This document shows, in pieces, positions 12,453-21,038 of a stretch of DNA of 33,939 nt; position 1 is the first letter of the stretch; every line of letters starts with the position of its first letter. A program made the position numbers and the translations under genes. This stretch comes from Myxococcales bacterium (lineage in GTDB: Bacteria > Myxococcota_A > Polyangia > Polyangiales > JAFGIB01): contig JAPPOR010000688.1 of assembly GCA_028817905.1 (NCBI GenBank), forward strand, positions 1 through 33,939. The letters run 5' to 3'. The notes under the pieces are model-generated. The model ran no database searches and was not told the origin of the DNA. It saw only the letters and a list, made by a program, of their open reading frames with translations.

Positions 12453-13862
12453 TCATGGCCCTTCGGCCTTGTACCAAACCAGCGCACCCGCATGGGGTAA
12501 GTCCTCGCCAGGGCTACGGAAGATCGCTGCGACCAGCAGACCGTTCCGCACTGCCCCCGGGTGCCCGTTCGCGTCCGAAACCGAGCGAGTGGGGGCGGCA
12601 TGCCACCCGAGCCAACTGTCGGGCTCCTGTCCAGTCTGCTCCATGAGCAGGCTCCGATCCGCGCCCGACCGGACCTCGAAGCGCCCCTGCCGGGCTGCGC
12701 CCGCCCAGGGGGCTCCGATCACGATGTCGTCGATCGCGTCTCCATCGATGTCCCCCGCAGGCCCGATGAAGCGTCCAAAAAGCTCACCCTCTTGCTTGCC
12801 TTCCAGGGTTTCTAGGAGGCGTCCTGTTACGGAAGAGTAGATGCGCACCTGACCGGTGAGGGGGCCATCGTCCGCCCGTATGTGGGTGGCGGAGATGGCA
12901 AGGTCCGCCACACCGTCGCCATCCACATCCGGCACCGCGGAGAGCATCTCCCCCAGCGCGGCCCCCATCCGGTCGCCGTCAAAGCGGCGCAAGTGCTCCC
13001 CCGTGCCGGTCGACAGCAGCAACGCGGCCCCGCGCTCTGGCTCGCCCTCTCCGTCGGGGCCGCGGGCCTCGGGGGCGCCGACCAACATGTCCGCAAGGCC
13101 ATCTCCGTCTAGATCCTCGATGGTGGTCACGTACCACCCGAACTGCGGGAGCTCGGGGCCTGCACGATACCGTCGCAGGATGGTCCCGTCGGCTCCATCG
13201 ACCAGCGCTACGTTGCCGCCTGAGGGGCCGATGGGGCAGCCGACCAAGACCTCGCCGACCCCATCGCCGTTGTGGTCATCGGTCGGCTCCAGGTGCCAGC
13301 CGAAGTTTTCAAACCGCTCGCCCCGGGCCGTCCACAGCTGTTTCCCGCGCGCGGGCGATTGGGCCGTGATCTCTCCTCGGGCCCCCGGCTCTGCCACCGC
13401 CTGGGGCGTGGAGACGATCAGGTCGGCCAGGTCATCGCCGTCGAGATCGGGCAGCAGCCGCACATCATGGCCAAACAGGGCGCCCTCCTCGGTGCCATTC
13501 CACCGGTGCAGGCGGGCACCGGAGGCACCCGACCAGATGCTGACGCGTCCCAGGGCTCGCCCGCCGAACTCCGCGAAGCGAGCGCCTGCTGCCACGTCCG
13601 GTACGTCGTCCCCGTCGACATCACGAGGTGAACCGAAGCGAAAGCCGACCTCACCCCATGGGACGTCCCCCTCGATCGTTCGGTGCGCATGCAACGTAAC
13701 GGGACCCGGTGTGCGCTTACCAGGGCCACGTGCGCTGCCGGAGTCGGCGTGCCGTCCGGCGTCTGGGGTGGCTTGCTCTCGCTCGACGTCGTTGCAGGCG
13801 GTGAACCACACCCATAGGGTCGCGCACAGGGCGCGTGCGGACCACGATGCGCGTGCTGTCAC
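12453..13862 (-). CDS. FG-GAP (integrin alpha-like) beta-propeller lipoprotein
   Basis: 469-residue lipoprotein predicted to form a seven-bladed calcium-binding propeller. GTG at 13862 is the start because its GTGA overlaps the stop of the upstream cytochrome gene and it gives a signal peptide ending in WFTAC (Cys23). The frame continues upstream but only inside that gene. Calcium loops of the FG-GAP type begin near residues 81 (DVDGDDVPDV), 139 (DLDGDDLADL), 197 (DHNGDGVGEV), 250 (DLDGDGLADM), 312 (DVDGDGVADL) and 371 (DIDGDAIDDI). A degenerate seventh lies near 430 (SDANGHPGAV). This fold usually binds protein or glycan partners outside the cell. Translational coupling to the tandem di-heme cytochromes suggests it is their surface partner or anchor. 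No enzymatic motif is seen. Confidence 0.88.
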   Translation of the reverse strand: MTARASWSARALCATLWVWFTACNDVEREQATPDAGRHADSGSARGPGKRTPGPVTLHAHRTIEGDVPWGEVGFRFGSPRDVDGDDVPDVAAGARFAEFGGRALGRVSIWSGASGARLHRWNGTEEGALFGHDVRLLPDLDGDDLADLIVSTPQAVAEPGARGEITAQSPARGKQLWTARGERFENFGWHLEPTDDHNGDGVGEVLVGCPIGPSGGNVALVDGADGTILRRYRAGPELPQFGWYVTTIEDLDGDGLADMLVGAPEARGPDGEGEPERGAALLLSTGTGEHLRRFDGDRMGAALGEMLSAVPDVDGDGVADLAISATHIRADDGPLTGQVRIYSSVTGRLLETLEGKQEGELFGRFIGPAGDIDGDAIDDIVIGAPWAGAARQGRFEVRSGADRSLLMEQTGQEPDSWLGWHAAPTRSVSDANGHPGAVRNGLLVAAIFRSPGEDLPHAGALVWYKAEGP

Positions 13863-15448
13863 GGGATCATCAGGCTTGCGGCCCGCCTGAGTGACAGCAG
13901 ATACACGCGCAGGGCGCCCTGGTCTTCGAAGGCCAGCCCTTCGAAGGCCTCGCTGACGCCCCTCGCTTCCCCATCGTGTCCCGCGATCGCGGTGTCGAGG
14001 TCGGGGGCCCGACCATCGTGGAGATACGGGGCCGAGTGCGCTAGCCCCCACAGTCGTCGTGTCTGGTATTCGGCGCGTGCGACGCCCCGGTGTACGTGCT
14101 GGCTGCGATTCCGGTCGCCCAGGTTGTGCCGGCGGAGGTCCGAGAACAGCCACACCGGGTAGCCACCGAGCTGCGGGTCGTATTGCAGCCGAGGGGTGGC
14201 ACCGGACCGGGCCAGATCGATCTCGACTCGCTCATGTCCGATTTGCAGCCGGTAGATCGGATCGTGCAGAAGCAACATCGGCTGATGGCAAGTTGCGCAG
14301 CCCAGTTCCGAGAAGAGCTCACGGCCCCGTGCCCAGGGTTCGCCAAACCGACGGGCGTTCGGCGGTGGCAGTGGCTCCGCAACCGGTTCCAGGGGTGGCA
14401 GCGGCTCCCAGGGTTCGACCACCGGGAGCGGCAGTGCCGCGAGGTAGGCAATCATGGAGACGAGCAATGCATCGGGCAGTTCGTCCTCGACGCCATCCTG
14501 ATCCGGATCCTCAGGCGGTCCCTTCCCAATGAGCTTCGGGTCGGTTTGTTGGCCGGCGGTGGCTAGGGCCGTCGCCTGAATGCCGAAATGCACCTGTAGA
14601 CTCTCCGCGATGAACTCCGGCAGGGTTTCGAAGTTGCCCTTCCAACCGAAGGGCCGCACGATCAGGTCGGCGTCCACGCCGGCCACGTCTTCGGTGTCGA
14701 GGGTGCCATCAGGCCGGGCTGCGAGTCGGCCGAAGGCGACACCCTTGGCGGTCAAGGAGACCTCGGTGGTCTCGCCGGTTCGCATCGCTTGGGCGCGGGC
14801 GGTCCGGCGTTGTTCGGCGAGTTCGGCGCTCATCTCGCGGGCCAGGAGTTCGACCACGGCCACGCCGTGTAGCGGCGGGGGGTTGCGAGCGTCGGCGCTT
14901 GTGATGTGTTCGCCGTCCCCCAGCAGGAACGTGTTGTCGACGATCTCACCGGCTCCGGCCAAGCCTCCGCGCCAGTGGCACGAGGTACACGAGAGGGTTT
15001 CCGGGCCCCCCGAGTCGCTCTGCACGCGGGTGAAGGGCCCTCGGCTGGTCTCGGAGGACATGCGGGCCGACTCGCCGGCAGCGAGGCCGTCGGAGTAGCT
15101 GAACTCGTGTTCGAACACGATGCGCCCCGCCTGCTGCAGGTCGGACAGGCACTGGGCGGGCGCGCCCGGGTGGGTGGTGAGGTTGCTCGCGAGCGTCTCG
15201 AGGGTGCTCCCCGGTCGCAGGGCTTCCAGCATGCGCAGTTCGTGTCGGCGCAGGTGATGGCGGTAGGCCGCGCGGGCGGCGGGTAGATCGAGACCCGTCT
15301 GCAGCATCTCATCCGGACAGCGGGCCTCGCCTACCCCGCCGTCCTGGGGCCCATCGCCTCGCTGCCGACAGCCCGCGGTGACCAGGGAAAGCGCAAGCAT
15401 CGCGCCCGCAAGGGTCCGTGGGGCGCTCATCGACCATCGGGCTTTCAT
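13859..15448 (-). CDS. Di-heme cytochrome lipoprotein, DUF1111-like oxidoreductase (second copy)
   Basis: 529-residue c-type cytochrome of the di-heme oxidoreductase type (DUF1111-like, distant from cytochrome c peroxidases). ATG 15448 overlaps the upstream stop as ATGA and yields a signal peptide ending in LVTAGC (Cys27), so it is probably a lipoprotein. Heme sites are CTSCH (154-158) and CATCH (384-388). The family core GVAFGRLAARPDG plus LIVRPFGWKG (about 236-271) and the C-terminal LWGLAHSAPYLHDGRAP are clear. An extra loop, DPDQDGVEDE (about 314-323), resembles a calcium site. It is a paralogue of the gene just upstream, sharing both heme positions, the RPFGWKG core and the YLHDGRAP tail. 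The electron donor and substrate are unknown; peroxide reduction or oxidation of an organic substrate are the options known for the wider family. Confidence 0.88.
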   Translation of the reverse strand: MKARWSMSAPRTLAGAMLALSLVTAGCRQRGDGPQDGGVGEARCPDEMLQTGLDLPAARAAYRHHLRRHELRMLEALRPGSTLETLASNLTTHPGAPAQCLSDLQQAGRIVFEHEFSYSDGLAAGESARMSSETSRGPFTRVQSDSGGPETLSCTSCHWRGGLAGAGEIVDNTFLLGDGEHITSADARNPPPLHGVAVVELLAREMSAELAEQRRTARAQAMRTGETTEVSLTAKGVAFGRLAARPDGTLDTEDVAGVDADLIVRPFGWKGNFETLPEFIAESLQVHFGIQATALATAGQQTDPKLIGKGPPEDPDQDGVEDELPDALLVSMIAYLAALPLPVVEPWEPLPPLEPVAEPLPPPNARRFGEPWARGRELFSELGCATCHQPMLLLHDPIYRLQIGHERVEIDLARSGATPRLQYDPQLGGYPVWLFSDLRRHNLGDRNRSQHVHRGVARAEYQTRRLWGLAHSAPYLHDGRAPDLDTAIAGHDGEARGVSEAFEGLAFEDQGALRVYLLSLRRAASLMIP

Positions 15449-17031
15449 GGCACGAACAGCTCCGGTTGGCGGCTCAGCGCGAGCAGGAATACGCGCAACG
15501 CGCCCTGCTCTTCCGAGGTGAGCTCCCGGTAGGCGTCGCGGGCGTCGCGGGCCTCGCCACCGTGCAACACGATCGCGTCGTGCACCGTGGGCGCGCGTCC
15601 ATCGTGTAGGTACGGGGCGGTCTCCGCCAAGCCCCACAGTGACCGCGTGAGAAAGACCGTGGGCGGGACACCACGCTGGATCGTCGGGGTCCGAAGCGCC
15701 GGACCCATGTCGTGGCGCTTTAGATCGCTGAAGAGCTCCACCTCAAAGGCTTCCTCCAGCAGGGTGCGCGCAGCCGGCTTGGGGTGCACGCCGTCGCGTG
15801 CCACATCGACGACGACCGGCTCGTCGTCCATGAAACGCGGTTGGTCCGGTCGGGTGACGAGCAGAGGGTCTTCCAACACCATGACCGGTCGATGACAGGA
15901 GGCGCAGCCGACGCGCTCGAACAGTCCGCGCCCCTGCGCAAACGCGTCGAGCAGTAGCGGCGCTTGCGGCGGTTGCACGAGCGGCACCTGCAGCTGTGCC
16001 AGGTAGACGACCATGGTCGTGACCATGCCGTCGTCGATCTCGATGATGGTGCCGTCCTTGTCGATATCGGACCACTCACCGTCACCGTACAGGTCAGGCG
16101 AGAGCAGCCCGTCGCGGACCCGCTCCTGGATGTTGGCGGACACGAGCCCCATGTGTACGCGGAAGGACTCCTCGACGATCCCGCGCAAGCTCGCCTGGTG
16201 CCCTTTCCAGCCAAAGGGGCGCACGACCAGATCCGGGTCCACCCCTTCGACCTCTGACACATCGGCCATACCGTCCGGGAGCGCGGTGATGTGCCCAAAG
16301 GCGACGCCCTTGGTTCGGAGCCGGCGCCGGACCGGCTCCCTGCGCTCGCGCGCGTCGGCGAGCGCGTCGTCGCGGGTGGCCTGCAGCTCCGCGGTCATCT
16401 CACGGGCCAGGGCGGCGACCGGACCGAGTCCCAGCACGTGGGGCGGGTTGCGCTCGTCGGCGCTCTTGGTCGAATCTCCATCTCCGCGGAAGAAGGCGTT
16501 TTGGGTGTTGGTGCCAGAACCATCTGGGCCGCCCTTGAAATGGCAGCCGGCACAGCTGAACGCGTCCGGGCCGCCGAAGTCACCGGCGTGCACGCGGCGC
16601 ATGTTGGGCATGGGCCCGTGGCCCGCCAGGTCGAACCCCGCGAGGTCATTGCCCAGGCCCTGGCCGGGCCGAAAGGCGTATTCGAACAGGTCGTCGCCCA
16701 CGGCGAACAGGGCATCGAGCCCCAGCGCGCCCTTTCGTAGCGCCTCCTGGGGCGTTTGTGCGTCTTCGAGCAGGTCGCCCGGGTACTCCGCGTCCAACTG
16801 CCGGGTGAACTCGGCGCGCACACGAAAATCCACCGCGGCCTCGATCTGTGCTAGCAGGGCCGCGTCATCCGGCAGGCGCGGATCCGAGAGCACCAGTTCG
16901 GAGACATGGCGCCTAGCCTCCGAGTTGGCTTCCGGCGCCCGCAACAGGATCGCGCATGCGAGCGCTGCCGCCATGTTGGCATGACGGGTCCGGCGAACGG
17001 CCCTTGCGGTTGGGAGTGGGAGTCCAGGCAT
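15445..17031 (-). CDS. Di-heme cytochrome, DUF1111-like oxidoreductase (first copy)
   Basis: 528-residue exported di-heme c-type cytochrome, paralogous to its downstream neighbour. ATG 17031 is preferred: an AGGGGGA lies nine bases ahead and it starts 35 bases after the Cys-rich lipoprotein gene. ATG 16974 is the alternative. The signal sequence runs through MAAALACAILLRA; no lipobox is evident, so this copy is probably soluble in the periplasm while its partner is anchored. Hemes bind at CAGCH (160-164) and CASCH (376-380). GVAFGHITALPDG, LVVRPFGWKG and LWGLAETAPYLHDGRAP match the paralogue. DIDKDGTIIEIDDG (about 322-335) looks like a calcium loop. The pair probably arose by duplication and may form a hetero-oligomer. 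The long extension back to 17232 overlaps the preceding gene and is not used. Confidence 0.88.
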   Translation of the reverse strand: MPGLPLPTARAVRRTRHANMAAALACAILLRAPEANSEARRHVSELVLSDPRLPDDAALLAQIEAAVDFRVRAEFTRQLDAEYPGDLLEDAQTPQEALRKGALGLDALFAVGDDLFEYAFRPGQGLGNDLAGFDLAGHGPMPNMRRVHAGDFGGPDAFSCAGCHFKGGPDGSGTNTQNAFFRGDGDSTKSADERNPPHVLGLGPVAALAREMTAELQATRDDALADARERREPVRRRLRTKGVAFGHITALPDGMADVSEVEGVDPDLVVRPFGWKGHQASLRGIVEESFRVHMGLVSANIQERVRDGLLSPDLYGDGEWSDIDKDGTIIEIDDGMVTTMVVYLAQLQVPLVQPPQAPLLLDAFAQGRGLFERVGCASCHRPVMVLEDPLLVTRPDQPRFMDDEPVVVDVARDGVHPKPAARTLLEEAFEVELFSDLKRHDMGPALRTPTIQRGVPPTVFLTRSLWGLAETAPYLHDGRAPTVHDAIVLHGGEARDARDAYRELTSEEQGALRVFLLALSRQPELFVP

Positions 17032-17066
17032 GCTGCGATCCCCCTGCCCCTTGCCTCCGCGAACCC

Positions 17067-18830
17067 CTAGCGGTCCACGCAGCACGGCACGTGAAAGTTG
17101 CCGCCCCCGCAGGACGTCCGTTGGAGTGGAGAAAGGGCAGCGCCGTTGTCCTGCACCAGCGTGTACTGACCCTGATGTCCCAGGTGCGCCGTGCTGTAGG
17201 ACCACGCCAGGGTATTGGCGGCGTTCATGCAACGCAAGGCCGGCGCGGCGCCGGGTTGCTCAACCCACCAGCCCGTCACAGCGCCTCCTCCCACGGCGGT
17301 CGGATTGCGTAGCTGGTTGAAATTGCGTGCCGCTCGCAACTTCGCCCAGGTGCAGACCGAACTCTGGGCGCCGAACTGCGCCCGACACTCGGCGATGCCG
17401 CCCGCCAGGCCACTGCCGCTGCCAAAGCTCCAGCTGCCATCGGTGGGACCGATGCTGCCTAGGTAGACGTTCATCCCCGTGCACGCGCCGTCCTCGCAGT
17501 CATAGCCATCGTCACAGGGGCTGTTGCAGCCTCCGCAGTGGTCTGGACTGGTTTGCTGGTTGACGCATATCCCACCGCAGCGGCTAAGCCCTGAGGAGCA
17601 CTCACAGCTGCCATCGCGACAGTCCTCGCGCGGGCCGCAGGTTCGGTCGCAGCGGCCACAGTTTCGCTCGTCGATATCCGTGTCCGTGCACTCCCCGCCG
17701 CACTCGTTGAGCCCGTCGACACATTCGCACTCGGAGTCCGAGCAGAGCCGGCGAGACCCACAGGAATTGCCACAGCGGCCGCAGTGGTCGTTGTCCGAGG
17801 CGGTGGCGACACAGCTACCGGCGCACGCGGTCTCTCCCTGGTCGCAGTCGAGGGTGCACTCTCCCGCGGTGCACACCTCGTCGTTGGCGCAGGCCCTGCC
17901 GCAACGGCCGCAGTGTGCGTGCTCCGAAGTCAAATCGACGCAGCTGCCGGCACATTCGGTTTTGGGGGCCTGGCAGTTCAGCTCACACTGGCTGCCCGAG
18001 CAAGCTTCTTCCGAGGCGCAGGCATTGCCGCAGCGGCCGCAGTGCGTGGGGTCCGAGGCGGTATTGACGCAGCTGTCGCCGCACTCCGTCAGCCCCTCAG
18101 GGCACTCGGCTTCGCACTGGCCCATCGCGCATACGGACCCGGCTTCGCAGGGTCGGTCGCAGCTGCCGCAGTGCTCGTCATGGGACTGCAGGTCCACGCA
18201 GCTGTCGTTGCATTCGTCGAGCCCGGGTTCGCAGGTGGGCAGACACTGGCCCATCTGGCACACCTCGCCGTCGTCACAGGCCTGGTCGCAGTCACCGCAA
18301 TGGGCGGGATCCGTGTGGATTCGCTTGCAGTTGCCCGAGCAAGCTTGCTCGCCGTCTGGGCAGCTGATCTGGCAGATGCCCTGGACGCACTGGTCGCCGG
18401 GGTCGCAGGGCTGGCCGCAGCCGCCACAGTGCACGGCATCGTTTTGAAAATCTGCGCAGCTCCCATCGCACGGCTCGAACCCTGCCGGGCAGCCGTCGCC
18501 GTCGCCGTCTCCGTCGCCGTCTCCGGTGTCGCCGTCGCCGTCTCCGGTGTCGCCGTCGCCGTCTCCGGTGTCGCCGTCGCCGTCGCCATCGCCATCGCCA
18601 TCGCCATCGCCATCGCCGGTGTCGCCGTCGCCATCGCCATCGCCGTCTCCGGTGTCGCCGTCGCCATCGCCGGTGCTGCCGTCCATGCCGCCGTCAGGGT
18701 TTTTGATAGGGTCTTCGCTGCTTTCCGGAAACTGAAAGCGGTCGAAGTCGAGCACAGCATTGCAGCCTGCGACGAAGCCCAGGCAGGCGATCGCCAGGAA
18801 AACGGCGTGTCGGGTTGGAGAAAACAGCAC
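17067..18830 (-). CDS. Stalked Cys-rich repeat lipoprotein
   Basis: 587-residue lipoprotein, function unknown. The signal peptide ends in FVAGC (Cys23). Residues 53-113 are an almost pure Gly-Asp tract broken by single Thr (GDGDGDT units), an extended acidic, possibly calcium-binding stalk. Residues 114-452 hold eight modules of about 42 residues, each with eight spaced cysteines. The common pattern is CPxGxxxCxxxC, about ten residues, then HCGxCxxxC, then CxxGxC, so four disulfides per module are expected. Residues 453-587 form a separate C-terminal domain with WSFGSGSGLAGG and a terminal CGGGNFHVPCCVDR. Such stalk-plus-Cys-module proteins are frequent in Polyangia. It lies 35 bases upstream of two di-heme cytochromes and may present them at the surface. 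The disulfides imply reliance on a periplasmic oxidation system. Confidence 0.88.
   Translation of the reverse strand: MLFSPTRHAVFLAIACLGFVAGCNAVLDFDRFQFPESSEDPIKNPDGGMDGSTGDGDGDTGDGDGDGDGDTGDGDGDGDGDGDGDGDTGDGDGDTGDGDGDTGDGDGDGDGDGCPAGFEPCDGSCADFQNDAVHCGGCGQPCDPGDQCVQGICQISCPDGEQACSGNCKRIHTDPAHCGDCDQACDDGEVCQMGQCLPTCEPGLDECNDSCVDLQSHDEHCGSCDRPCEAGSVCAMGQCEAECPEGLTECGDSCVNTASDPTHCGRCGNACASEEACSGSQCELNCQAPKTECAGSCVDLTSEHAHCGRCGRACANDEVCTAGECTLDCDQGETACAGSCVATASDNDHCGRCGNSCGSRRLCSDSECECVDGLNECGGECTDTDIDERNCGRCDRTCGPREDCRDGSCECSSGLSRCGGICVNQQTSPDHCGGCNSPCDDGYDCEDGACTGMNVYLGSIGPTDGSWSFGSGSGLAGGIAECRAQFGAQSSVCTWAKLRAARNFNQLRNPTAVGGGAVTGWWVEQPGAAPALRCMNAANTLAWSYSTAHLGHQGQYTLVQDNGAALSPLQRTSCGGGNFHVPCCVDR
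18492..18674 (-). repeat. Low-complexity GDGD-coding tract
   Basis: About 180 bases of near-perfect triplet and 21-base tandem repeat. The plus-strand unit GTCGCCGTCGCCGTCTCCGG plus T recurs, and a GTCGCCATC subtype lies in the middle. It encodes the Gly-Asp stalk of the lipoprotein at 17067-18830. Mixed synonymous codons show several rounds of expansion. Length is likely to vary between strains. Confidence 0.93.
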
Positions 18831-18980: not shown

Positions 18981-21038
18981 CTACCGGACCGTGAACTCCA
19001 GCTCGGCGGTCCCCACATTGTGGCGAGCGTCCACCGCCCGCACGGAGACCACGTGCACTCCCGGTGGCAGGGTGGGCAGTGGGATGCTGAAGCGCTCCAC
19101 AGCGGTGTCCAACATGTCGTCCTCGGGGTAGGCCGGGCGCCAGTGGTCCTGATCGATGCGGTAGCGCAGCTCCCGCAGGGGCCCCATGCTGTCGACGGCG
19201 CGACCGACGAGCTTGCCTTCCACCACGCGCAGGTCGCGCACCTGGGGGGCATGGTTGTCGATCAACACGGGCTCGGACAACCGGTGGTGCGTTTCGTGAC
19301 GTCCGGCAGGGTTGTCGAGTTCGTCGCTCGCATCGAGCGACACGACGTAAAACCCGTCGGGCACGTTTTCCGTGTCCCATTCGAACGTGGACTTGGTCAG
19401 AATCTCGTACTCGCGCAGCAGCGGCCGAAGGCGGGTTGCCTTCTCAGGCCGGTAGGCGAGTCGGTAGCGTAGCGCGTCCCCATCCGCGTTCGCGACCTTC
19501 CAAGAGACAGTGTACTTCGTAGTCGGGCTTGGCTCGGCCTTGGACTTGCCTTTTTTCTTGGTCCGCTTGGGTGCGACCGACAGTGTCGCGATGATCGGCG
19601 CCTGGTTGCGAGGCAGGTAGTGGGCCGTGATCGCGAACAGGCGGGCGTTCGTACCGAGCTGTGCACGCAGTTGAAGGAAGCGTGCGGCGGCGCTGCGAAT
19701 CGGTCCGGCCTTCGTCACGGGTGAAGACCACTCGCTCCAGGTGTCATCTGGCTTTTCCGTGTTGCCGGAGCGGGTCTGGACTCGGATAGGCCCTGCTCCG
19801 CGGAAGGAAAGCTGCCCCCAGCGAGCGTGGAAGCTTGCGTCCAGCGGCTTGCTGATCCAGTAGCCGTCGTTGCCGGTGCCGGCGCGCACCTGGTAGATGG
19901 CGGCGCCGTCTCCTGTCACGAAGCGAGGGTACTTGCCGGCAAGAGCGAGACCCAGGACCTGACGCTCGTCGACGTCGATCCACAGGGCATGGGAGCCATC
20001 CGTGCGCACGCGGTAGACCTGCCCGTCCTTGCCCGTGGCGGCGAAGATCGTATCGTCGGTGTTCCAGCTGACCGCGGTGATGTGCCCCTTGGTCGCGTCG
20101 AAGATTCGTGTGGCGCGGCCGTTCGCTTCGATGTGCCAAAGCTGCCCTTTTCCCGGCTTGGGCCGTGTCGGAAGCGCCGTCTTCTTGTTGTTCCGGTTGC
20201 TACCGGACTTCTCCTGATCGTCCTTGCCGTTGGTCTTCTTCTTGGCCTTCTTCTTCGAAGAGGGCGCCTTGGGAAAGAGGTTGGCTGCGACCGCTAGAGC
20301 CCCATCGCGGATCGCGATCGAGGTGATTTCATTGCCCTCGAAGTCGTACACGACCTCCGACTTGCCGCGGCTCCGAACGCGCAGGAGCAGGGCATCATTG
20401 CTCGTTCCGGCATAGAGCGTGCCCCGCTCGTCCAGCGCGAGCGTCATGATGTGCTCGGCTTCGGTGTCGAGGTGTTCTGTCGCGTTTCCGCGGGCATCGA
20501 TCTGGAAGATCTTGCCGTTCGGCCCCGTGCCCGCGTACAGGGCCTGCTTGCGGCTGTCGTACGCCAGCGCCCAGACGTAGTCCGCGTCTTCCAGGCTTGC
20601 GAACTCGGTTGCCTTGCCCTTGGCGTCAACGCGCAGGATCTTGCCTCCCGGCAGGGTTGCGGCGAGCAATGCGCCCCCGGGTCCCCGTGTCAACGCGGTT
20701 ACCATGAGCGCTTCGGTTTCTGCGAACAGCGAGGCGGTCTTTCCATCGAAGCGATAGATCTTGCCTTCCTTTGCGGTTCCCACGAAGCTGATGCCGCGTT
20801 CATCGGTCAGGATGCAGCTGGCGACGCTTGCGTCCGGCAGGGCGGTGCGCGTCGTGTCAACACCGCGCACTACGATGCCCGTCGAGTCTACGGCGGCGCC
20901 TTCGAGTTCACCTTCCGATAGCGATTCGGCGCTGTCGAGGACAAAGCTGCGGGTGCCCACGGCCCGTGCCTGGCTTGACGCGAGACAAAGACAACAGGTC
21001 GCGAATGGGATCGTCCAAGTGGACTGGCTTCGCATCAT
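18981..21038 (-). CDS. Secreted beta-propeller protein coupled to an S55 peptidase gene
   Basis: 685-residue exported protein of unknown function. A signal peptide (TIPFATCCLCLASSQARA) is followed by propeller-like repeats at about 75-250 and 299-385 (GKIYRFDGK, GKILRVDAKGKATEFASL, GKIFQIDARGNATEHLDT, GQVYRVRTDG), each a strand-turn unit as in NHL or SMP-30-like propellers. A Lys-rich, probably disordered insert at 256-298 (SSKKKAKKKTNGKDDQEK and more) splits the propeller. The C-terminal third has fibronectin-like beta domains (YTVSWKVANADGDALRYRLA, then FYVVSLDASDELDNPAG) and a last domain with GVHVVSVRAVDARHNVG. The start ATG overlaps the stop of the upstream S55 peptidase gene as ATGA, so the two are made together. 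The propeller may be its substrate, chaperone or sensor. The gap to the next gene is 150 bases. Confidence 0.82.
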   Translation of the reverse strand: MMRSQSTWTIPFATCCLCLASSQARAVGTRSFVLDSAESLSEGELEGAAVDSTGIVVRGVDTTRTALPDASVASCILTDERGISFVGTAKEGKIYRFDGKTASLFAETEALMVTALTRGPGGALLAATLPGGKILRVDAKGKATEFASLEDADYVWALAYDSRKQALYAGTGPNGKIFQIDARGNATEHLDTEAEHIMTLALDERGTLYAGTSNDALLLRVRSRGKSEVVYDFEGNEITSIAIRDGALAVAANLFPKAPSSKKKAKKKTNGKDDQEKSGSNRNNKKTALPTRPKPGKGQLWHIEANGRATRIFDATKGHITAVSWNTDDTIFAATGKDGQVYRVRTDGSHALWIDVDERQVLGLALAGKYPRFVTGDGAAIYQVRAGTGNDGYWISKPLDASFHARWGQLSFRGAGPIRVQTRSGNTEKPDDTWSEWSSPVTKAGPIRSAAARFLQLRAQLGTNARLFAITAHYLPRNQAPIIATLSVAPKRTKKKGKSKAEPSPTTKYTVSWKVANADGDALRYRLAYRPEKATRLRPLLREYEILTKSTFEWDTENVPDGFYVVSLDASDELDNPAGRHETHHRLSEPVLIDNHAPQVRDLRVVEGKLVGRAVDSMGPLRELRYRIDQDHWRPAYPEDDMLDTAVERFSIPLPTLPPGVHVVSVRAVDARHNVGTAELEFTVR

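Follow-up and report, generated by a model that had tools for sequence, protein, structure and literature searches.

A conserved surface module of twin di-heme cytochromes and a putative C-type-lectin-like partner in Myxococcota, with a tyrosine as its candidate redox site

The window analysed here, a stretch of 33,939 nucleotides from a Myxococcales bacterium (contig JAPPOR010000688.1), holds an operon of four minus-strand genes at 12453-18830, which encode, in order, a stalked Cys-rich lipoprotein, di-heme cytochrome A, di-heme cytochrome B and an FG-GAP propeller lipoprotein. The operon belongs to a conserved module, and we propose that, on the cell surface, its di-heme pair may oxidise, or exchange electrons with, a tyrosine (Tyr94) in the probable C-type-lectin-like domain (CTLD) at the C-terminus of the Cys-rich protein. 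The chemistry is suggested by analogy, and we put the probability of this reading at roughly 0.42. The link between the cytochrome pair and its partner is well supported, and it emerges from computed features: the gene order, two cytochrome clades kept as a pair, the co-occurrence of pair and CTLD, a second family of propellers and the tracking of the pair by the tyrosine. The CTLD, absent from a preliminary description of this DNA, is the part of the Cys-rich protein that is conserved across loci.

Co-occurrence was assessed in 284 Myxococcota genomes searched with cytochrome A; the close relatives found were adjacent pairs, and their loci were retrieved. A first CTLD profile, made from the linked domains of eight genomes and run over the same 284 genomes, placed the domain in all 14 genomes with the pair. 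Six of these (G247, G184, G204, G260, G121 and G164) lay outside the profile set, and their CTLD gene is unlinked. The first profile also gave weak matches in four further genomes, and a wider profile gave strong matches in 4 of the 270 genomes without the pair (G100, G038, G068 and G108), together with weak matches in another five. With kinship ignored, a Fisher test returned 2e-20 for all 14 genomes; restricted to the six unlinked ones, it returned 4e-10. Among 95 further genomes the pair was present in 12, each with a CTLD (12/12), and four matches, of which two were strong and two weak, fell in genomes lacking the pair. Records behind the wider profile include some of these 12, so that the result is a replication of the rule and not a blind test. 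Overall, the CTLD is present in all 26 Myxococcota genomes with the pair. In these counts G204, with a single unfused relative of A, was taken as a pair genome, and the fused protein of G257 was not counted. Gene calls outside the window were made with a simple script, and many of the genomes are metagenome-assembled genomes (MAGs). The unlinked CTLDs of G121 and G164 were considered as chance matches, an explanation that was rejected after the profile was improved.

Earlier reasoning had held that the cytochromes should not regularly occur apart from the other three genes. This stands in part: in some clades the genes are unlinked, but the CTLD gene then lies elsewhere in the whole genomes searched. 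Neighbouring lipoprotein genes brought together by chance or horizontal transfer, with no joint function, would fit the clades that have no CTLD beside the pair and the large number of MXAN_6577-type Cys-rich proteins, stretches of which are present at many other sites of the window's genome. We consider this extremely improbable, given that unlinked genomes keep the CTLD, that the trees of the two cytochromes mirror each other and that the tyrosine follows the pair.

The strongly conserved columns of CTLDs from genomes with and without the pair agree save at Tyr94, in the motif C-x-x-W-x-Y (codon at 17196..17198, minus strand), and, less sharply, at a Thr/Ser two places on. In a first comparison, Tyr94 was found in 48 of 52 CTLDs with the pair and in none of seven without it (0/7). 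Six new no-pair domains provided a forward test, and all were without the tyrosine (G327 Phe, G343 Leu, G370 Ser, G378 Ser, G030 Thr, G271 Asp), bringing the totals to 55/62 in pair genomes versus 0/13 in no-pair genomes (p 6e-10, kinship ignored). Within a single genus, G306 with the pair has both a Tyr copy and an Asn copy, whereas G100 without the pair has an Asp form only. Because a Phe clade (G108, G068, G038 and G327) and the Leu form of G343 nest within Tyr-bearing clades of the domain tree, the tyrosine was lost on at least two occasions in lineages lacking the pair. In G068, the no-pair CTLD gene, of the Phe form, adjoins two octaheme cytochromes (L199:9993-13344), perhaps another redox partner.

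The near-invariant Trp71 (codon at 17265..17267, minus strand, in strand beta2) behaves differently from Tyr94. Both Trp71 and the six invariant cysteines are kept in pair and no-pair CTLDs alike, the tryptophan in 7/7 of the latter, and its persistence there indicates that it is probably structural; it lies in a core strand, at the site of the signature Trp of CTLDs. Maturation of the MopE/CorA type, in which Trp71 would become kynurenine in a copper site, could draw on this near-invariance and on the precedent that CorA and MopE carry kynurenine and are co-transcribed with di-heme genes resembling cytochrome c peroxidase (CCP) (PMC3912023). It is nonetheless very unlikely, as Trp71 does not track the enzymes and lies in the core, and the conversion of Trp to kynurenine was set back as the tie between enzyme and partner.

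The CTLD itself occupies 17070..17474 on the minus strand. The gene upstream of cytochrome A varies from locus to locus, but most such genes end in this same domain of about 135 residues, which closes with CC and in which Trp, Cys and Tyr positions are invariant or nearly so. None of 13 domain members matched the Pfam CTLD families, and Foldseek gave no match to the predicted structure at E 0.001. The structural matches listed for the model (predicted local distance difference test, pLDDT, 82) are mostly CTLD, endostatin or Link folds, with the best Z, 7.1, for endostatin, and they include the tips of Bdellovibrio Bd2740 and Legionella Lcl. As these scores are moderate, a C-type-lectin-like fold is likely but not proven. 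The Tyr94 loop is the lowest-confidence part of the model (residues 89-98), and it falls in the usual binding region of CTLDs. In the window, the Cys-rich protein (17067..18830, minus strand, GTG start) consists of a lipobox, a GDGDGDT acidic stalk, STIG1/MXAN_6577-like Cys modules and the C-terminal CTLD; it scores 142.8 on the Stig1 profile against 24.1 and 273.9 bits on the MXAN_6577-like Cys-rich profile (NF041328) against a curated cut-off of 100. Elsewhere the stalk is DUF4215-type, coiled-coil, collagen-like or MAT-like, and the CTLD is unchanged. The STIG1 modules were therefore rejected as the conserved element, since the stalk differs between loci and the genome holds many members of this family with no cytochromes beside them. 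The window's protein did not match the MAT chimeric fibre profile (NF053851).

Cytochromes A (15445..17031) and B (13859..15448), both on the minus strand, are paralogues. A tree of 122 cytochromes splits the 51 A and the 51 B proteins into two mutually exclusive clades with one change each, and 0 of 500 shuffles gave a value as low for their separation. The A and B trees branch largely as mirrors, and the gene order is always A then B. Since both clades need one change only and their branching is largely mirrored, the data point to one old duplication followed by long upkeep as a pair. The twin clades do not include the single relatives known from Chloroflexota and Acidobacteriota; the unpaired Chloroflexota relatives come from Caldilineaceae, SAR202 and Dehalococcoidia (L164-L166, L170-L174, L176, L178 and L179). 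Six further loci (L162, L167, L169, L175, L177 and L061), several from Planctomycetota, encode proteins of about 950-1000 residues with four CxxCH motifs and the look of fused twins, with no CTLD adjoining. The genome from which the window comes (11.1 Mb in 1110 contigs) has no close second copy of the pair or of the FG-GAP gene; it does contain a distant single di-heme paralogue of the CLECHS type (L062, contig C933, 13781-15358), and similar singles occur in G202 and G022. A widespread Myxococcota family, exemplified by L028-L034, has frames of about 800 residues in which the C-terminal peroxidase-like motif occurs twice, about 1 kb apart.

Each cytochrome has exactly two CxxCH motifs: CAGCH (heme 1, 16540..16554) and CASCH (heme 2, 15892..15906) in A, and CTSCH (heme 1, 14975..14989) and CATCH (heme 2, 14285..14299) in B, all on the minus strand. 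Both proteins keep the heme motifs as well as His490 and further near-invariant residues, so that both look competent; the notion of one inactive twin found no support, with heme and ligand columns conserved in A and B. In a profile alignment, His490 of A (codon at 15562..15564, minus strand) takes the place of the Met ligand of CCP and lies 14 residues past the PYxHDG motif. This distal position, Met in CCP and Tyr in MauG, is His in all 51 A proteins and in 98% of B, and heme 2 is therefore predicted to be bis-His ligated (His380 and His490), as in RoxA; heme 1 is presumed to be open. The model of A, a polypeptide without heme (pLDDT 89), resembles MauG, hydrazine synthase gamma, MbnH and bacterial CCPs with Z of about 14-16. 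Both proteins belong to the DHOR family (PF06537; A 50.9 and B 43.3 bits, cut-off 22) and fall below the gathering score of 25.6 for CCP_MauG (PF03150; 16.7 and 20.5 bits). DHOR is named a putative peroxidase family and the fold of A is that of bacterial CCPs, which would suit plain peroxide defence or respiration, with A and B as surface peroxidases and the CTLD and propeller as anchors. We regard this as improbable, because such enzymes need no dedicated lectin-like partner and both the co-occurrence and the tyrosine pattern would go unexplained.

A collagen-like stretch follows the lipobox in 7/51 B proteins, which suggests an enzyme with a stalk of its own in those lineages. Di-heme lipoproteins with collagen-like GPAGPAG after the lipobox are encoded by the B genes of L047, L051 and L053-L056.

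Because Tyr and not Trp follows the enzymes, we propose that A and B oxidise, crosslink or pass electrons via Tyr94. At its N-terminal heme the pair would use peroxide or oxygen, and the C-terminal heme, which is predicted to be bis-His, would relay electrons; the CTLD would be oxidised at or through Tyr94, so that the tip is matured or redox-switched, and the propeller and stalk would hold the parts in place outside the cell. A physical complex, the identity of the oxidant, the role of the tyrosine as substrate or as point of electron entry, and a ligand for the matured tip are what we infer in this scheme. A more specific version, in which a di-heme heterodimer would make a Tyr-derived cofactor or crosslink at the tip of lectin-like surface fibres and so turn that tip into a redox-active head for binding or catalysis, with the propeller as counterpart of that in tryptophylquinone amine dehydrogenase, is decidedly speculative and we think it unlikely to be correct.

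In the main alternative, the enzymes would oxidise an external substrate, such as a polymer, a lipid or a prey surface, captured by the CTLD and propeller, with A and B acting successively (oxygenase, then isomerase or peroxidase) and the tyrosine aiding the docking of the ligand or of an enzyme. There are precedents: PA2078-PA2077 of Pseudomonas aeruginosa are tandem paralogous di-heme enzymes that catalyse successive steps (PMC4496055), RoxA is an extracellular di-heme oxygenase with a bis-His C-terminal heme (PMC6311187), and CTLDs serve as binding tips in Bd2740 and Lcl. However, a ligand role alone leaves unexplained why loss of the tyrosine coincides exactly with absence of the pair, the RoxB rubber oxygenase profile (NF050034) does not score (A 13.8 and B 12 bits against a curated cut-off of 900), and the spacing of the His ligand is of the CCP type, unlike that of PA2077. 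Oxidation of an external substrate is thus possible but, in our view, rather unlikely, and the tyrosine pattern favours oxidation of the CTLD.

Several points nevertheless weigh against CTLD oxidation through Tyr94. The 14/14 co-occurrence is partly circular for the eight genomes behind the profile, and many of the genomes are incomplete MAGs. Seven CTLDs from pair genomes are without the tyrosine: the one at L106 (His) adjoins a pair, and the others are extra copies, found in G164, G306, G260 and G321 (in G321 the contig ends and no Tyr copy was seen). The no-pair set is only 13 domains, several of them distant relatives, and the CTLD fold match is moderate, with its best Z of 7.1. The proposal rests on sequences and on single-chain, heme-free predicted structures; Tyr94 could be an interface or ligand residue and not the target; and for MauG, MbnH and SACCP/CorB the established or presumed target is Trp.

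A wider search, through 84,980 species genomes, yielded 75 named loci, including those of Polyangium, Minicystis, Paraliomyxa, Byssovorax, Kofleriaceae, one Candidatus Binatia MAG, Acidobacteria bacterium Mor1 and many MAGs; outside Myxococcota there are single loci in Acidobacteriota and in the Binatia MAG. A CTLD lies within 4 kb of the pair in 38/56 pair loci (36 by profile, L107 and L117 by eye) and near it in 28/35 loci with both flanks of at least 1.5 kb. The seven well-flanked loci with no nearby CTLD are L114, L137, L140, L142, L146, L150 and L163, of which L137, L140 and L146 correspond to G164, G260 and G121 (matched indirectly), where a CTLD is found elsewhere in the genome.

Besides the CTLD gene, the recurrent neighbours of the pair are an FG-GAP gene, a BNR-like lipoprotein and a TSP3-repeat lipoprotein. 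The FG-GAP gene occurs at 10 loci, the window included, and its strong orthologues in the 284-genome sample are limited to G000, G252 and G077, all with the pair. The view that the FG-GAP propeller is a general part of the module thus had to be abandoned: it is confined to the window's clade, and other clades have the BNR-like protein or, in a third clade, the TSP3-repeat lipoprotein beside the pair. The BNR-like family, unrelated to FG-GAP, is found at 13 loci after B, mostly with a 4-base ATGA-type overlap, and we take it to be a second propeller, although its Pfam similarity is weak (15.7 bits). At L113, L115 and L119 the CTLD and FG-GAP genes form a convergent unit facing the pair, and the CTLD genes of G121 and G164, although unlinked, still have the BNR-like gene next after them. 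The Cys-rich protein and propeller had both been described as binding scaffolds; a binding-type partner does recur, and a propeller often, but the STIG1 stalk itself varies and it is the CTLD that is constant. At L202:2400-5243 (G077), the gene after an unlinked FG-GAP orthologue encodes a large protein that has two CxxCH motifs and, as judged by eye, a portion resembling glucose/sorbosone dehydrogenase. Genes at L150:9828-11438 and L168:3893-5164, in loci without a propeller, encode proteins with several Cys-His heme-like motifs and have a 4-base overlap with the last gene of the pair.

Within the window, the tight coupling of the four genes given in the preliminary description is borne out. 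Cytochrome A starts 35 bases past the stop of the Cys-rich gene, an ATGA overlap joins A to B, and a GTGA overlap joins B to the FG-GAP gene (12453..13859, minus strand), whose product scores 88.6 bits against 22.1 on FG-GAP (PF01839), over 5 stretches. Export of all four products likewise agrees with the N-termini as read from the sequence: lipobox-like starts in the Cys-rich protein (FVAGC), cytochrome B (VTAGC) and, more weakly, the FG-GAP protein (FTAC), and an apparently ordinary signal peptide in cytochrome A. The next gene upstream (18981-21038) encodes a predicted propeller, weakly similar to ScyE/Vgb-lyase, and is not among the families that recur beside other pairs.

The arrangement was not found described in the open-access literature searched. 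The di-heme modifying enzymes described so far target Trp in a few partner proteins, and the module would extend this to a widely distributed family, mainly of Myxococcota, in which the enzyme is a twin, the target is of the adhesin type and the Tyr site can be given to the codon. If true, it would also supply a function for DHOR-type di-heme proteins, most of which have had no clear substrate, and the cultured strains of Polyangium, Minicystis and Paraliomyxa allow a direct test.

The components can be compared with several known systems. The Bdellovibrio Bd2740 MAT fibre and Legionella Lcl are likewise stalked surface proteins with a CTLD tip, and one clade of module partner proteins weakly matches the MAT N-terminal model (NF053851; 31.3 bits for the L055 protein, curated cut-off 60). 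In the available parts of the sources, however, di-heme enzymes are not reported with either, and the C-terminal domain of Lcl is without disulfides whereas the module CTLD has six conserved cysteines. PA2078-PA2077 (FadCcp) likewise consists of two adjacent paralogous di-heme genes, and the bis-His C-terminal heme of these systems and of RoxA is also predicted for the module; the distal His of PA2077, however, lies 58 residues past its PYFH motif (PMC4496055) versus 14 in the module, and no CTLD partner is reported for FadCcp or RoxA in the accessible portions. RoxA is absent among the structural matches listed for cytochrome A, an absence that carries no weight.

Other parallels are di-heme enzymes with a dedicated protein partner. 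MbnH, which oxidises its partner MbnP, is MauG-like and similar in fold to cytochrome A (6e1c, Z 14.9), although A scores only 12.9 bits on TIGR04039 against a cut-off of 362.85. MauG, with the same fold, acts on pre-methylamine dehydrogenase much as we propose for A and B, and a propeller subunit, along with a small Cys-rich one, is likewise part of its partner complex; MauG differs in being a single enzyme with a His-Tyr heme 2 and a Trp target, where the module has two paralogues, a predicted bis-His heme 2 and a CTLD with Tyr. The likeness to MopE and SACCP, already drawn in the preliminary description, is the right kind of comparison: in the methanotroph systems SACCP/MopE and CorB/CorA a di-heme CCP-like gene is likewise co-transcribed with that of a surface protein, which the enzyme oxidises by inference of the authors (PMC3912023), but the partner there is a copper protein with kynurenine, whereas the module has a CTLD whose Trp does not track the enzymes. 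The module follows the logic of MauG, MbnH and SACCP, with a dedicated partner that is retained even after the genes have separated.

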